Shown: one piece after another, positions 8,283 to 33,589 of the stretch
Layout of the letters: each line of letters begins with the position of its first letter
Numbering within the stretch: position 1 is the first letter of the stretch
IMG/VR virus record: IMGVR_UViG_3300044608_001174
Span: 1-35,081 of that record
Length of the DNA: 35,081 nucleotides
DNA from: a virus
Strand: one strand, 5' to 3'
The notes under the pieces: model-generated
Seen by the model: only the letters and a program-made list of their open reading frames with translations
Databases searched by the model: none
What the model was told of the DNA's origin: nothing
Made by a program: the position numbers and the translations under genes

Positions 8283-8318
8283 AAAGGGGGAACGGGAGAA
8301 CCCCGTTCCCCTTTTTTG
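8283..8318 (+). terminator. Rho-independent terminator after the major capsid gene
   Basis: A perfect 10-bp stem (ggggaacggg at 8287-8296 with cccgttcccc at 8302-8311) and a 5-nt loop are followed by six T bases (8312-8317). The stem can extend through flanking A bases pairing with the T run. The next gene starts at 8321, so the terminator also occupies that gene's leader. It would lower transcription of the tail genes relative to the capsid gene. Confidence 0.9.
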
Positions 8319-8320
8319 TT

Positions 8321-21236: not shown

Positions 21237-23636
21237 ATGCCACAACAACTGACGAAAATCGAAATCGACATGATCTCGCAAGCCGCGCAGACGGCTTTGC
21301 AAGGTCAAGCTGGTGCAACCGGTCCTGCTGGGCCTCAGGGCGAAACGGGGCCTCAAGGGGTCGCTGGGGGAGCCGGAGCAACGGGACCTGTCGGAGCAAC
21401 AGGACTGACAGGAGCAACTGGCCAGCAAGGCGTGCAGGGCAACGCTGGAGCAATCGGAGCAACGGGTCCGCAGGGAACGCAGGGAGCAACCGGCGAAGTC
21501 GGGCCAACTGGGGTTCAAGGTGTTCAAGGCCCGACGGGTTTGACAGGTGCGACAGGAGTGCAGGGTGCAACTGGCCAGCAAGGCGTGCAAGGTGACGTCG
21601 GAGCAACTGGACCAAGCGGGGCGCAGGGAAGCCAAGGGGCAACCGGATTGCAAGGGACACAGGGGGCAACGGGGGAAACTGGATCGCAAGGTGCCACTGG
21701 TGCGTCTGGGCAGTCTGACAAGTATGCGACCACATCGACGACCTCGCTTCTCACCGGCAACGGGAGCAAGACGCTGACGGTTGCAACGGGGCTTTCGTAC
21801 ACGGTCGCTCAACCCGTCGTCATCGCTGAGACGGGCGGGACGGCCCATATGCACGGGACGGTGACGAGTTACAACTCGGGGACGGGGGCGTTGGTTGTCG
21901 ATGTCTCGAACCACACGGGTTCTGGCACGTTCAACTCATGGTCCGTCAATCTCGAGGGTGCTGTGGGTGCTGTCGGGCCGACTGGGCCACAAGGCGCGAC
22001 AGGTTCGACTGGTGTTGCTGGTCCGACCGGAGCAAGTGGAGTCGCTGGCGCAGATGGAGCAACGGGGCCACAAGGGACTCAGGGTGCTACGGGGCCAAGC
22101 GGAGCGCAGGGCGCCACGGGCGAGACTGGGCCGACAGGCGCACAGGGGTTGACTGGTCCGACCGGATCGCAAGGGCCGACAGGGCCGAGCGGGTTGCAAG
22201 GTGTCCAAGGTGACATCGGGGCGACAGGATTGACGGGAGCAACTGGGTTGACTGGTTCGACCGGTGTTGCTGGTCCGACAGGAGCATCGGGAGCGCAGGG
22301 GATTCAAGGTGACCCCGGGCCGATTGGTGCAACTGGCGCGCAGGGTCCAACCGGATTGACTGGCGCGACGGGTGCCGGTGCGACGGGTGCGACGGGCGTA
22401 GCTGGTGATCGCTACACCACATCCTCGACCACTTCGCTTTCGCTCACGACCGGAGTCAAGACGCTCACGGTGGCAGCAAACCTCGCGTTGTCCGTCGGCC
22501 AGAACGTCGTGCTGGCTTACGACGTCGATCACCGCATGACGGGCATCGTCAACGCGTACACGGCCAACACGGGGGTCTTGGAGGTTGACGTGGTGAAAGT
22601 GCTCGAAGGCACCGGAACCTACGCATCATGGGCCATTTCGCTTGATGGTGCGGTTGGACAGGTCGGAGCAACCGGTGCTGTCGGACCAACTGGTGTTGTG
22701 CTCGGTGGAGGGATTCTCTCGCCGCGTTTCACGGGCAACGGAAGTGCGACTGAGTTCGGCCCGATTGAGGGCTGGGATGGTCCGCAGAACGACGAAGCGG
22801 GCTATCTCGTTTACGTTGGCGGTGTTTTCCAGCGTCCCGACGAAACCAATGGCGGGTTCACCATTACGGGGACGACACAAGCCAACTCGAAAATCGTCTT
22901 CCCGAGCGCACCAGCAAGCGGTGTTGTCATCGACGTGCTAGCGGTGCAGGTGACGGGGGCCAAGGGAGCAACGGGAGAAATGGGTGCAACGGGTCCTGCT
23001 GGGTCTGGAGGTGGTGCTGGCATCTCAGCATGGTCGAGTTCAACCACTTATGAGGCCGATGACTTCGTGTGGAAGAACAACAACATCTTCCGAGCGTTGT
23101 CACAGAACACGGCGAATGATCCGGAAGGGTCAGCGCAGCACTGGCGTCGCATGGTGCCAACTGGGAGCTGGGACACAAACATCGCTTACAAACAAGCCGA
23201 GTTGGCAGTTTACAACGGGCAGCTTTACATCGCTTTGGGCGACAACAATGGCTACCAACCCAACAACAACTACCAGTTCTGGGCATTGGTAGCTGGCGCG
23301 ACGGGTGCGACTGGTCCTTCCGGCATGGATGGCAATGTTGGCGCAACGGGGCCGCAGGGAGCGCAGGGAGCAACCGGTGAGATGGGGCCTTCTGGCGTTC
23401 CGGGCACGGATGCAAACATGATGGGCGCGACGGGCGCGACGGGACCAAGCGGAGAAGTTGGGCCGACGGGGGCGACGGGTGCTGGCGAAACCGGAGCAAC
23501 TGGCGAAACCGGAGCAACTGGACCAGAAGGCCCTACAGGCCCGAACTATGCAACAGGGGACGCTCCATCCAACACCTCGACGGTTGTCGGATGGCTTGAC
23601 GCTGGCAGTGGCAAGCGCATCCCTTATTACGAGTAG
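21237..23636 (+). CDS. Collagen-like tail fibre protein 2 with repeated beads and carbohydrate-binding-like modules
   Basis: A 799-residue modular fibre. An N-terminal helix (1-20) is followed by collagen-like triplets from ~22. Two globular beads of about 82 residues (161-242 and 391-472) are clearly related, each ending in a (N/S)L(E/D)GAVG element. A GGVFQ module (~518-571) follows. Two tandem Trp/Tyr modules (~598-640 and ~644-685) resemble CBM5/12 chitin-binding modules and could bind sugars. Further collagen repeats lead to a C-terminus ([12 protein letters not shown] then RIPYYE) similar to fibre protein 1. Probably a trimeric side fibre for receptor binding. Confidence 0.85.
21717..21962 (+). 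repeat. Fibre bead module, copy 1
   Basis: Codes for residues 161-242 of collagen-like fibre 2 (starts [12 protein letters not shown]). It is homologous to the module at 22407-22652 and sits exactly 230 residues before it. Both copies share TTS(T/S)TTSL, KTLTVA, and SW(A/S)(I/V)(S/N)L(E/D)GAVG. Confidence 0.75.
22407..22652 (+). repeat. Fibre bead module, copy 2
   Basis: Codes for residues 391-472 of the same protein (starts [12 protein letters not shown]). It matches copy 1 in order and spacing of hydrophobic strands, with many substitutions, so the duplication is old relative to the surrounding collagen repeats. Confidence 0.75.
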
Positions 23637-23644
23637 CCATTGAG

Positions 23645-23703
23645 ATGAGAAAACCCCTAGGCTGGAGAGGATGACAACTCTCCATTGCCTAGGGGTTCCT
23701 CAT
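23645..23703 (+). promoter_or_regulatory. Long hairpin enclosing the glycosyltransferase start codon
   Basis: Inner stem tggagag (23663-23669) pairs with ctctcca (23678-23684). After a two-base bulge, aacccctaggc (23652-23662) pairs with gcctaggggtt (23687-23697). An outer 5-bp stem (atgag with ctcat) closes it. That makes 23 pairs. The 8-nt loop holds the ATG at 23671, and the purine-rich GGAG is in the stem. There is no T tract, so it is not an intrinsic terminator. It could block ribosome entry until it is melted. Confidence 0.65.
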
Positions 23704-24816
23704 ACCGTCACGCACCCCGATTACTCAGCGTGCGCGTTCACTCAAAAAGTCTTGAAGTTCTTGGAGATGTTCAAGGACTCGAGCGAATACCGCACGATCC
23801 ATTACGGACACCCAGACTCCATCACTGCCGCTCACGAGCACGTCAATGTGACCTCTCGTGACATCCTGCAAGAGACTTACGGGGACTACGACTGGCGTAG
23901 AAACCAGTTCAAGCACTCGTCACAAGACCTTGCACATCGGGCCTTTAACCTCATCGCTGGCGAGGCAATCAAGCGGCGCAAGAAGAAAGGCGACATCGTG
24001 CTGGCCTTCTGGGGAGGCACGCAGGAAGCAACGCACATCGCCAACGCTGACAAGGACCTGATCATCGTCGAACCCGGCATCGGCAGTGGCCATGCGTTCG
24101 CTCCGTTCCGTTGTTACGAGTCTTATCCACTCCGCTCAGCGTTTGTCGGAACCGATGGTGTTTCCTACTGCAACCCAAAGTGGTATTGGCGGGTGGTGCC
24201 GAACTACTTCGACACGCGCAACTTCGACCCGACGCAGAAGCGAGAAGACTATGCGCTTTTCATCGGTCGTCTCGGAACCAACAAGGGCTTGGATCTCGCC
24301 ATCGATGCGTGCAAGCGAATGGGTGTTCGACTCAAGGTCGCTGGCCAAGGTGGGCCTGAGGGCATCGGTCTCAAGGAGTGGCCTGATCACGTCGAGTTCG
24401 TCGGCTACGCTGGCATCGAGGAGCGCAAAGAGTTGATGGCCAAGGCTCAGTTTGGATTCCTGCTTTCGACGTACTGGGAGCCGTTTGGCGGGACCGCTGT
24501 CGAAATGATGCTATCGGGATGCGTTCCGATCTGCTCTGACATGGGCGCGATGACGGAGTACATCGTTGACGGTGTGAACGGGTTCCGGTGCTCGACCATG
24601 GGTGACATCCTGCGAGCCATTCGGATCGGCTATCGTATCGATCGCTCAAAGATGGTCGCCTTCGCTCGCGCCAACTTCTCGCTCGATGCTGTCAGGCCAA
24701 AGTTCGAGCGTGCTTTTGCCGACTTCCGCGACGTGTTCAGCGGGGCGGGTTGGTATGAGGACCACAATAGGCCGTGGACGGTCGGCTATGGTCTGGACTA
24801 CTCGCCGCTCAGTTGA
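23671..24816 (+). CDS. Glycosyltransferase, GT4-type (GT-B fold)
   Basis: A 381-residue family-1-like glycosyltransferase predicted to transfer a sugar from a nucleotide-sugar. The N-terminus LHCLGVPHTVTHPDYSACAF is typical of phage and environmental GTs. The C-terminal half has the donor-site pattern: IGRLGTNKGLDLAIDA, VAGQGGPEG, and EPFGGTAVE, the E-x7-E motif of GT4 enzymes. Situated after two collagen-like fibre genes, it might glycosylate the fibres, or modify host surface sugars or DNA. The substrate is not knowable here. The start codon lies in a strong hairpin loop. Confidence 0.85.
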   Translation: MTTLHCLGVPHTVTHPDYSACAFTQKVLKFLEMFKDSSEYRTIHYGHPDSITAAHEHVNVTSRDILQETYGDYDWRRNQFKHSSQDLAHRAFNLIAGEAIKRRKKKGDIVLAFWGGTQEATHIANADKDLIIVEPGIGSGHAFAPFRCYESYPLRSAFVGTDGVSYCNPKWYWRVVPNYFDTRNFDPTQKREDYALFIGRLGTNKGLDLAIDACKRMGVRLKVAGQGGPEGIGLKEWPDHVEFVGYAGIEERKELMAKAQFGFLLSTYWEPFGGTAVEMMLSGCVPICSDMGAMTEYIVDGVNGFRCSTMGDILRAIRIGYRIDRSKMVAFARANFSLDAVRPKFERAFADFRDVFSGAGWYEDHNRPWTVGYGLDYSPLS

Positions 24817-24832
24817 TGGCGGACAGTAGGGT

Positions 24833-25318
24833 GTGGACTGGAAATCATTACTTCCGACAATCGGGCGGGTCATTGGTGGCCCGCTCGGAGGCATGGCTGT
24901 CGAGGCCGTTGGCAAAGCCATCGGAATCAGCGAACCAACCATTGCCAAGGTGCAGGATGCTCTCGATGGCAATACGCTCACAGACGCGCAAATCGTGGCT
25001 CTGCGCGAAGCGGATGCTCAACTCAAGGTGAGGATGCGGGAACTCGACATCGACCTTGAGAAACTGGCGACAGAGGACCGAGACAGTGCGAGACGGATGC
25101 AAGCAAAGACACAGTCTCGTGTTCCAGCTGTGCTCGCTCTCATCATCACGGTCGGATTCTTCGGTGTGCTCGCAGGTCTGCTCACCGGACATTTCGACCT
25201 TTGGGATAATGCAGGGATCACGATGCTCATCGGATCGCTCGCGACCTCGTGGGGCATGGTCGTCTCCTTTTACTACGGAAGTGCCGCAAACCTCGGGAGG
25301 CCACCAGAAAAGAAATGA
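24833..25318 (+). CDS. Holin-like membrane protein (3-TM holin family type)
   Basis: A 161-residue protein with two C-terminal transmembrane segments (~104-125 and ~135-155) after a soluble helical part (RELDIDLEKLATEDRDSARR). The ELDIDLE...DRDSAR...VPAVLA arrangement matches a family annotated as phage holin (3TM-type). The start is GTG at 24833; an in-frame TAG at 24827 excludes any upstream start. The DWKSLLPTIG N-terminus fits the family. It would form membrane lesions at lysis and opens the lysis cassette. Confidence 0.7.
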   Translation: MDWKSLLPTIGRVIGGPLGGMAVEAVGKAIGISEPTIAKVQDALDGNTLTDAQIVALREADAQLKVRMRELDIDLEKLATEDRDSARRMQAKTQSRVPAVLALIITVGFFGVLAGLLTGHFDLWDNAGITMLIGSLATSWGMVVSFYYGSAANLGRPPEKK

Positions 25319-26686: not shown

Positions 26687-26712
26687 CCTGTTGCGTGTTA
26701 AAGGGTGGCGCG

Positions 26713-27267
26713 ATGCAACCCGACTGGACACCCGAACACCTCGACACTCCCGCCGAACTGCTCGCTGAGCGGTTCGGCGTTTCCGTCTTCACAGCGACCG
26801 AAATCCTCCGCTGGCACGAGGCAGAGCAGTTGCTCCATGTCGAACAGACCGCGTCAGCCATGGGTGGCGCACATCTGCACCGCATCCTCGCGTGGATGCT
26901 CGGCCCCGGGGATGCCAAGGCAAAAGCGGTGGCTCTTTGCTTCGCTGCCGACCTACAGCCGCTCATCGGATGGACGACTCTGGCGGAGGCAGCTGACGAA
27001 CTCGGCATGACCTCAGCCAACCTTTCCAAGCTCCAAACGGAGATTCAAGCATGGTTGGAACTGCCTGAGAACCAGTGGAATAAGACGAAGTTCCGGTGTC
27101 GCCAGCAGGGGAAACCAATCACGAAGGAACTGCCGACGGTTGAAAGGGTTGCACAGTCTTTCCGCAGGTGGTTGCAACGTGTTGATGTTAAGGCATTAAC
27201 CACTGAGCAGAAGGCACTTGTGAAGCGGACTCTATCAGGGGTTGTTGAGTTCGCGGAAACCCTTTGA
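26713..27267 (+). CDS. Helix-turn-helix protein, possible regulator
   Basis: A 184-residue protein with a likely helix-turn-helix at about residues 88-112 (TTLAEAADELGMTSANLSKL), preceded by a helical region and followed by a basic C-terminal half (NKTKFRCRQQGKP, ERVAQSFRRWLQRV). It resembles a DNA-binding protein, perhaps a regulator of the early/late switch, given its place at the boundary between lysis and replication genes. ATG 26713 is preceded by aaaggg 6 nt upstream, so this start is favoured over the GTG at 26695. Confidence 0.5.
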   Translation: MQPDWTPEHLDTPAELLAERFGVSVFTATEILRWHEAEQLLHVEQTASAMGGAHLHRILAWMLGPGDAKAKAVALCFAADLQPLIGWTTLAEAADELGMTSANLSKLQTEIQAWLELPENQWNKTKFRCRQQGKPITKELPTVERVAQSFRRWLQRVDVKALTTEQKALVKRTLSGVVEFAETL

Positions 27268-27357
27268 GGATTAGGCACTTCGGAGCAGTTGACGGGATGC
27301 TTCGAGCGTGGGACGATTCATTCACGTTCATCCGGTTTTGCCGGTTGTCTGGGTTGT

Positions 27358-27389
27358 CCGATGCGGGGGAGTGAGGTCTCCCGCATCGG
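27358..27389 (+). other. Hairpin in the control region
   Basis: CCGATGCGGG (27358-27367) pairs with CCCGCATCGG (27380-27389). Two extra bases GG bulge out, then AG pairs with CT, leaving a 6-nt loop. There is no T run after it, so it is not a normal intrinsic terminator. It could be an operator-like palindrome or part of a transcript structure. Confidence 0.6.
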
Positions 27390-27398
27390 TAAACTCCT

Positions 27399-31358: not shown

Positions 31359-33242
31359 ATGCTGACACCGTATGAACGCGCCGCAAGCTACGCGGCAAAA
31401 GTGCCCGGGGCCGTCTCTGGGCAGGGAGGCCACTCAGCCACCTATGATCTCGCAAGAGTGCTGGCTCACGACTTCGCACTAAGCGAGGCCGAGAGCCTGC
31501 AAATCCTCGAGCAATGGAACCAGAGGTGTTCACCACCGTGGTCTCGCAAGGAACTCGAGCACAAGGTCAGGCAGGCCGCGAGCAAGCCGCACAACAACCC
31601 GCGAGGGTCGAAGCTCGACACGCACCAGACCGTCAGCCCGACGGGAAGGTTCATTATCAACCGGAACGCGGCACCAGTGGATCTCTCAGGGGATGACTCG
31701 TCGGCATCGACGATCCGATTCCTCAAGGCCGCATTCATGCCCGGTGAGCTGGTCTGCATCTGCACTCAGGCACTCGAGAGTGAAGACGGGAAGCACCGAC
31801 CGGGGAGCCATGGAACCTTCAAGCCTCTTGAGTGGTTCATCGACCAAATCGAGCAGGGAGACAACCCGTTCACCTGCTCGTCAGCATCGGGGCGATGGAT
31901 CCGCATCAACCCCTACCGGAACGAGAGTTCGACGGGGGCGGATTCCAACGTGAGCGCATACCGTCACGTGCTCATCGAGTTCGACGACCTGCCAGAGGCT
32001 GACCAGTTGGCCACCCTCAAAGGATCCAACCTGCCGCTCACCGCTATCATCTCGAGCGGGGGCCGATCGTTCCACGGTTGGGTCCGCGTTGACGCACCCG
32101 ACAAGGCAACGTGGGAGGCCCGTCGTGACCTCGTTTATCAATACCTTGAGGACGCTGGACCTTGTCCCGCGAATAAGAACCCCGGCAGGTTCTCGCGTCT
32201 GCCGGGATGCAAGCGGGGCGACCAGTGGCAACGGCTGGTCTCACTCCGCGAGGGACCGGAAACGTGGGAAGAGTTCGAGCAGTGGTTCCGCCGCAGGGAC
32301 CTGCCGCAGGTCATGACGTGGGAGACCCTCAAGGATATTCCCATCATGCCGGATCCCACCTGCATCCTAGGGGAGCGGTGGCTCTGCAAGGGTGGTTCGC
32401 TGACCATCGTCTCATCATCGGGCGTCGGGAAATCCTCGTTCTGCTTGCAGTTCGCCACAGCAATGGCCACTGGCACTCCTTTCTTCGGTATCGCACACCC
32501 CGACGGGAAGCCGATGCGTGTCGGGATCATCCAAGCAGAGAATGACTGGGGGGACGTGCTCGAAGCTATGTTCGGATCGGTCCAGTGGCTCTTGTCAGCA
32601 GGTCGAGGGACAGCAGGGGCGGGGAAGCTCCTCAACGAAAATCTGAAACTCTTCCGCGAGAACACGAAGACCGGTGCCATCTTCCTCGGCATCCTCCGCC
32701 AACTCATTAAAGAGCACCGACTGGAGGTCGTCATCATCGACCCGCTGATGGCGTTCTTCGGGGGCGATGTGAACGACCAGAAAGGGATGAGCGTCTTCCT
32801 CCGAAACACCCTGCAACCGATTCTCGAGGAGACTGGGTGCGTCGTGGTGCTCATCCATCACACGGCCAAACCGAAAGCCGAGAAGGCCCAATCCTCGAGC
32901 GAGGTGGCGTACCTCGGAGCAGGGTCCAGCGAACTCACCAACTGGTCTCGCGAGGTCGCTGTTCTGCAACGAGAGCCCGACCGGAAAGACGGGAACAAGG
33001 CCGCATTCAGCCTGACCCTTTGCAAGCGTGCTGGCCGCTCGGGGATGGTGGATGAGGAGGGAAACCGCCAACCCAAGATCCGAATCGACCACTCAACGCA
33101 GGGCATCTGGTGGGTCTACGCACCCCCACTTCCTCCCGATTCCGAGCCGGAAAAGAAGGGGAAAAAGGACGGTGAATGGACAGCAAATCGGGACGTGAAG
33201 AGCCCGATACCTAAGCGATTCAGAAAGGAGCAGGGAGAATGA
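31359..33242 (+). CDS. Primase-helicase (PriCT-like, AEP-like primase, RecA-fold helicase)
   Basis: A 627-residue replication protein. Residues ~28-76 look like a PriCT-type domain (LARVLAHDFALSEAESLQIL then PPWSRKELEHKV). Residues ~175-300 look like an archaeo-eukaryotic-type primase core, with IEFDDLP (206-211) as the acidic motif and SSGGRSFHGWVRVD (232-245) as the following motif. Residues ~330-560 form a RecA-like ATPase: Walker A SGVGKSS (354-360), Walker B VVIIDP (457-462) and LIHHTAKPK (498-506), as in RepA/DnaB-like helicases. It would prime and unwind phage DNA. The A/C-rich leader has no Shine-Dalgarno sequence. A large hairpin follows within 60 nt. Confidence 0.85.
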   Translation: MLTPYERAASYAAKVPGAVSGQGGHSATYDLARVLAHDFALSEAESLQILEQWNQRCSPPWSRKELEHKVRQAASKPHNNPRGSKLDTHQTVSPTGRFIINRNAAPVDLSGDDSSASTIRFLKAAFMPGELVCICTQALESEDGKHRPGSHGTFKPLEWFIDQIEQGDNPFTCSSASGRWIRINPYRNESSTGADSNVSAYRHVLIEFDDLPEADQLATLKGSNLPLTAIISSGGRSFHGWVRVDAPDKATWEARRDLVYQYLEDAGPCPANKNPGRFSRLPGCKRGDQWQRLVSLREGPETWEEFEQWFRRRDLPQVMTWETLKDIPIMPDPTCILGERWLCKGGSLTIVSSSGVGKSSFCLQFATAMATGTPFFGIAHPDGKPMRVGIIQAENDWGDVLEAMFGSVQWLLSAGRGTAGAGKLLNENLKLFRENTKTGAIFLGILRQLIKEHRLEVVIIDPLMAFFGGDVNDQKGMSVFLRNTLQPILEETGCVVVLIHHTAKPKAEKAQSSSEVAYLGAGSSELTNWSREVAVLQREPDRKDGNKAAFSLTLCKRAGRSGMVDEEGNRQPKIRIDHSTQGIWWVYAPPLPPDSEPEKKGKKDGEWTANRDVKSPIPKRFRKEQGE

Positions 33243-33589
33243 ATAATCCGTTATTAAATAAAACCTATTCCCCCCGCCCCGTACCACCCCCCCATCGGGA
33301 ACCCCACCGGGGGCCCATAGCCACCCCCCTTCATAGGGGGGGGTGGCGTAGGGACCCCCGTGGGGATTCCCGTGGGGAGGGGTGGGGCGAGGGCAGAGAG
33401 AGGGGAGAGAAGACAAGAAAAACCCCATTCCGCTATCTCCACCCTCGGAACGGTCTAGGACGCCGATTTGAGGCCGTTCTGTTCGATTTTCGGCCATTCG
33501 GTGACGGAATCAAAACCGTAAAACGCAATGCAGGACGGAAACGACCAATCTCCCAGAGAGCAGCAACAACCAAACAACCCGTAAACTAA
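33239..33589 (+). CDS. Doubtful low-complexity reading frame over the hairpin
   Basis: An open frame of 116 residues begins with an ATGA overlap at the primase-helicase stop, but the product (RPVPPPHREPHRGP, Gly/Arg-rich) simply reflects the inverted C- and G-rich DNA. No domain is seen. I regard the region as mainly structural DNA and list the frame as unlikely. Only a short leader peptide before the repeat might be translated. Confidence 0.15.
   Translation: MNNPLLNKTYSPRPVPPPHREPHRGPIATPLHRGGWRRDPRGDSRGEGWGEGRERGEKTRKTPFRYLHPRNGLGRRFEAVLFDFRPFGDGIKTVKRNAGRKRPISQRAATTKQPVN
33271..33395. repeat. Giant imperfect inverted repeat (candidate origin or regulatory structure)
   Basis: Core stems from outside in: GGGAA 33297-33301 with TTCCC 33367-33371; CCCCAC 33302-33307 with GTGGGG 33360-33365; GGGGG 33309-33313 with CCCCC 33355-33359; CCC 33314-33316 with GGG 33351-33353; GCCACCCCCCT 33320-33330 with the A-G run-TGGC 33335-33347 (two extra G). 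Loop TCAT 33331-33334. About 30 pairs with single-base bulges. Further C-rich (33271-33293) and G-rich (33372-33393) flanks are partly complementary. No T run follows. Confidence 0.75.
33374..33393 (+). other. G-quadruplex motif
   Basis: Four G runs (GGGG, GGGG, GGGG, GGG) separated by A, T and CGA meet the classical G3+N1-7 rule. It lies on the right arm of the inverted repeat and is followed by a purine-rich run to about 33421. Confidence 0.75.

Follow-up and report, generated by a model that had tools for sequence, protein, structure and literature searches.

The question raised by this locus is whether a long hairpin enclosing the start codon of a phage glycosyltransferase gene is functional and, if so, what it does. 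The stretch of DNA analysed (hereafter the window) is a virus record of 35,081 bases whose genes for terminase, portal, tape measure and tail fibre proteins identify it as a tailed phage. In a DNA similarity search, no similar DNA was found among known phages for positions 22500–25000, and no cultured member of the hairpin-bearing phage group was found in this analysis. The glycosyltransferase (GT) gene is located on the + strand (23671–24816, 381 aa; Pfam Glycos_transf_1, group 1; phrog_3408). It adjoins a collagen-repeat tail fibre gene (21237–23636, + strand), the stop codon of which lies 8 nt 5' of the hairpin. Relatives of the GT were not found in bacterial genomes.

The hairpin, as derived from RNA folding and covariation in relatives, extends from 23645 to 23703 on the + strand and consists of 23 bp in three stacks and an 8-nt loop. 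The outer stem (left arm ATGAG, 23645–23649; 5 bp with 23699–23703) is missing from the folds of the loci L008, L009 and L015. The middle stem (left arm AACCCCTAGGC, 23652–23662; 11 bp with 23687–23697) represents the conserved core, and homology to the relatives starts here. The inner stem (left arm TGGAGAG, 23663–23669; 7 bp with 23678–23684), which is shortened in the clade L018–L021, contains the Shine-Dalgarno-like motif GGAG (23664–23667), and the start codon ATG (23671–23673) lies in the loop GATGACAA (23670–23677). The right arms and a 2-nt bulge (23685–23686) occupy positions 23678–23703 and code for the GT residues LHCLGVPH. This fold has a free energy of -37.5 kcal/mol (z -7.1), which was reached by none of 200 dinucleotide shuffles, and the identical structure was the minimum-energy fold in contexts of 160, 350 and 550 nt. 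The earlier note on this DNA, which had described three stacked stems with the ATG in the loop and GGAG in the stem, was correct in this respect. No Rfam family matched the window above its gathering score.

The hairpin is real and not a product of chance. When 43 gene starts, called mechanically in the window, were compared, the GT start ranked first in structure (-38.6 in comparison to -23.3 for the runner-up and a mean of -12.4), and none of the other called gene starts in the loci of relatives was structured to the same degree. If the first 12 codons were recoded synonymously while the left flank was kept, none of 2000 variants folded as well as the native sequence; the same was true for 2000 shuffles of the left flank (the left arm) with the coding side fixed. 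The leucine codon CTA in the right arm makes up 4% of the Leu codons of the window; of the 12 distinct hairpins, 11 have retained it. The hairpin recurs in at least 20 further IMG/VR contigs, which stem from many samples, and an assembly artefact is thereby ruled out.

Beside the hairpin, other strong structures were detected in the window. A very GC-rich inverted repeat of 43 nt (33287–33380, 77% complementary) inside the ORF 33239–33589 has the lowest folding energy of any 66-nt segment of the window (-57 kcal/mol), and strong hairpins are clustered at 27326–27394, after the ORF 26695–27267.

An IMG/VR protein search yielded 48 loci with GT relatives, and a wider search yielded 80. The hairpin occurs in all GT relatives with 85–100% identity and a start present; together with the window, these amount to 22 records and 12 distinct sequences. 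In a maximum-likelihood tree of 43 GTs the carriers form one clade, corresponding to one gain; the support of this clade is moderate (83/80). A covariance model applied to 60 sources gave strong matches only at the GT starts of this clade. More distant GT relatives share a start resembling LHCLGVPH and lack the hairpin of this clade; therefore, the left arm was gained a single time and evolved to be complementary to a coding sequence that already existed. The order of events indicated by these comparisons is coding sequence first and left arm later, with a single origin. This agrees with the earlier note, in which the right arm was taken for a conserved N-terminus and the left arm for its evolved complement.

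Hairpins around the GT start codon were also observed in L041–L044 (GGCAGTGTAG..CTACATTGCC) and in L023, L025 and L085 (GGTATAGT..ACTATGCC); these are weaker and independent, and they covary little or not at all. In a near sister lineage (L031–L033, L048), a hairpin of 7 bp (ATGCGAC..GTTGCAT, -7.5 kcal/mol) holds the GT ATG in an 8-nt loop. It is weak, shows little or no covariation in L031–L033 and may be either an ancestral form or due to chance.

Compensatory changes in homologues, for which the earlier note had proposed to search, were present. In the alignment of the carriers, pairing was observed in 95% of the cells of the 18 core pairs, and this value drops to 32–50% when one arm is slid by 1–3 columns. 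Four pairs show changes on both sides among the 12 distinct sequences: A-U to G-C in L017; C-G to G-C in L018, L019 and L021; C-G to U-A in L019, where L018 and L021 have U-G; and, in the inner stem, G-C to A-U. In a phylogeny-aware simulation, in which each column received its own number of changes at random places on the GT nucleotide tree, the paired cells gave p 0.007, the double-change pairs p 0.04 and both together a joint p of about 0.001. Of the one-sided departures in the 11-bp core, three were G-U, one was of another kind and none was A-C; although these numbers are small, G-U without A-C favours selection acting on the + strand RNA over selection on the DNA.

The hairpin is furthermore linked to the GT. 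Upstream of the GT, the window and L018–L021 encode a collagen fibre whose end is of the PYY type; L004, L005, L016, L017 and L039 encode a collagen fibre without this end, and L008, L009 and L015 an unrelated, non-collagen protein (1022 aa in L009 and L015). The gap between the upstream stop codon and the GT ATG measures 34–45 nt across the carriers. Identity between carriers is at chance level upstream of about -20, the 19 bases 5' of the ATG are 84–100% identical within the main clade, and homology between carriers with different upstream genes starts exactly at the left arm. Because the hairpin was kept with the GT while the upstream genes were replaced, and because upstream identity is at chance level, its function belongs to the GT start. 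Judged from the alignments, the left arm is the boundary of the module.

This boundary also bears on the possibility that the structure is a non-functional inverted repeat, formed either by a quasipalindrome template switch that copied the coding start or as a recombination seam, and re-corrected by the same process. Template switching is able to copy changes between the arms, and the single origin as well as the position of the left arm exactly at the module boundary are consistent with such an event. Nevertheless, the middle stem stays 99% paired across the carriers despite a hotspot of gene replacement, the intermediates are G-U and not A-C (few cases), and the exact left-arm patterns found in IMG/VR are hairpins at GT starts only. 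A mere repeat is therefore highly improbable. Of the recombination seam suggested in the earlier note, the position at which homology begins was retained; a seam alone predicts no covarying arms.

In many relatives without the hairpin (L026, L072, L078, L080, L112, L113, L117), the end of a U-tract terminator lies close to the start codon of the GT; such a terminator would likewise limit GT expression. In L082, L084, L108 and L118 neither hairpin nor U-tract terminator is present at this position. It might be supposed from these terminators, and from a similar one directly before ATG 8321 in the window, that the hairpin acts as a terminator or attenuator, extends with its 3' arm into the GT and replaces the ordinary terminators of the relatives. 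However, the 10 nt that follow the stem contain only 1–4 T in each carrier, which means that a U-tract is absent; a terminator was not called on the + strand, and the hairpin tracks the GT rather than the upstream gene. An intrinsic terminator on the + strand was rejected for the first two of these reasons, and a terminating or attenuating role is altogether quite unlikely. A terminator-like call on the minus strand (23670–23654) was due to four T's that are missing from most relatives. The terminator before ATG 8321 (8283–8320; AAAGGGGGAACGGG / CCCGTTCCCCTTTT TTGTT) is of the classic U-tract type, abuts the start codon without space for a promoter and matches in its layout the terminators before the GT in related phages.

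A processing site for RNase III, or another double-strand nuclease, that splits the fibre and GT messages could be seen in a bulged stem of 18–23 bp in an intergenic position of a polycistronic late message. Cuts in the right arm would ruin the GT start, though, and the length of the stem differs among the carriers, which makes such a site very unlikely.

With regard to translation, the cost of opening the ribosome footprint (-15 to +12) was computed as about 33 kcal/mol at 37 °C. A response to temperature, as considered in the earlier note, did not hold: the cost decreases from 41 to 30 kcal/mol between 15 and 45 °C and amounts to 36–40 kcal/mol at 20–30 °C. An RNA thermometer was rejected, since 30 kcal/mol at 45 °C implies no melting at growth temperatures. 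A leader peptide (MRKPLGWRG*) overlapping the GT start in the window was also rejected, as it is absent from the other hairpin sequences tested. With a spacing of only 3 nt between GGAG and ATG, and with many genes of this phage starting without a Shine-Dalgarno sequence, GGAG may not be the signal in use for ribosome binding, and it is not certain which bases have to be exposed. Starts without a Shine-Dalgarno sequence (e.g. 6938, 10585, 28750, 29491, 33597) possess A-rich unstructured leaders, often with ACC or CC before the ATG, and clear AAGGAG-type sites were observed at the starts 33239 and 34258.

It is fairly likely that the hairpin is a cis-acting + strand RNA structure which hides the initiation region of the GT and keeps GT synthesis low on a polycistronic transcript. 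That GT output is held down in this way is probable from the structure, its conservation, its linkage to the GT and known systems taken together. With the ATG in the loop and the bases that the 30S subunit has to cover in the stems, the initiation region of the late transcript would be hidden. A delay of translation, one of the roles considered in the earlier note, would fit this reading. As soon as the right arm is transcribed, the hairpin would close and further initiation would stop. Each read-through transcript would be little translated, mainly by ribosomes that load before closure, and an enzyme needed in few copies would stay low on a message shared with abundant fibre proteins. With 8 nt between the stop codon of the upstream gene and the hairpin, a ribosome terminating there would reach only the hairpin's base. 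By analogy with MS2 and T4 genes, the closed hairpin should nearly stop initiation.

A stricter form of this limiter, in which only the ribosomes loading before closure translate the GT, so that output follows the number of transcripts and is largely independent of message lifetime, is conceivable but doubtful. With the same reserve, it may be that a hairpin made from the GT's own conserved first codons and, in sister lineages, a terminator before the start arrive at the same low output.

Against a limiter it can be held that a hairpin of this stability should silence translation almost completely, and that distant GT relatives manage without it. Full expression would require either that the 5' end of the transcript falls within the left arm (at about 23661 or later) or that some factor unfolds the hairpin. 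The first case corresponds to a timing switch of the T4 type, in which long transcripts contain the hairpin and are silent, and a short, translated message arises from a promoter, or by cleavage of the RNA, within the left arm. The computed cost of opening is in line with such a switch, since it decreases from about 33 kcal/mol for the full-length transcript to 12.5, 7.3 and 4.0 kcal/mol if the 5' end is placed at 23661, 23667 and 23670, respectively. Moreover, the invariant TAGGCT (23658–23663), which fits TANNNT, would put the start of transcription near the ATG, and the T4 genes e, soc, 49 and I-TevI behave in this manner (PMC3014915, PMC2988022). On the other hand, a sigma-70-like promoter was not found near the site, the sequences 5' of the left arm are unrelated among the carriers, which excludes a conserved -35 or other promoter part, and TAGGCT is a poor -10 which is also fixed by pairing. 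No release device, either a promoter in the left arm or an opening factor, was identified. Because no promoter was found, a constitutive limiter of the GT dose is favoured; the switch, though unlikely, is the main alternative.

Why a low dose might be advantageous is suggested by the neighbourhood of homologous genes. In cultured cyanophages, genes for a collagen protein and for a 2OG-Fe(II) oxygenase are clustered with the homologous GT, and for this reason the GT plausibly glycosylates collagen-like fibres. For an enzyme that modifies abundant fibres, few copies would suffice. In Synechococcus phage ACG-2014f (L158, 2983–4660), the GT homologue adjoins the 2OG-Fe(II) oxygenase and a collagen-repeat protein is encoded nearby, which suggests a possible set for hydroxylation and glycosylation of collagen-like fibres.

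If the limiter is confirmed, phages would possess a way to keep the dose of an enzyme low within an operon of structural genes. The locus represents a compact case with evolutionary support, in which selection appears to keep a gene start nearly untranslatable, and the clades with hairpin, with terminator and with bare starts provide a natural series for the same gene.

Among known systems, the MS2 coat hairpin is much less stable than the hairpin at the GT start. In MS2, the free energy of a start hairpin of 27 nt determines how much coat is expressed and, as at the GT, the start codon and a GGAG Shine-Dalgarno sequence lie within one local hairpin (PMC9894550). MS2 is an RNA phage and its 27-nt hairpin opens readily, whereas the GT hairpin of a DNA phage comprises 59 nt and costs about 33 kcal/mol for opening of the footprint. 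In T4, hairpins that mask the Shine-Dalgarno sequence and/or the AUG keep the genes e, soc, 49 and I-TevI silent; the GT start resembles these genes and mobE of Aeh1 in that the Shine-Dalgarno sequence and/or AUG is located in a helix on a long polycistronic transcript of a DNA phage (PMC3014915, PMC2988022). In the best-studied cases of the T4 type a late promoter yields hairpin-free transcripts, whereas none was found at the GT; in addition, the product of the gene concerned here is a glycosyltransferase whose conserved N-terminus is encoded by the right arm. With the intrinsic terminators before the GT starts of related phages the hairpin shares its strength and the same short intergenic space; those terminators end 5' of the ATG and have a U-tract, whereas the hairpin of the window encloses the ATG and has none. 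With an enclosed start codon and compensatory changes, it can be assigned to the start-codon-sequestering hairpins of the MS2 coat and T4 type, a lowered translation being expected by analogy. Control of translation by start hairpins is already known in phages, and the hairpin at the GT start of these uncultured phages is a new example.
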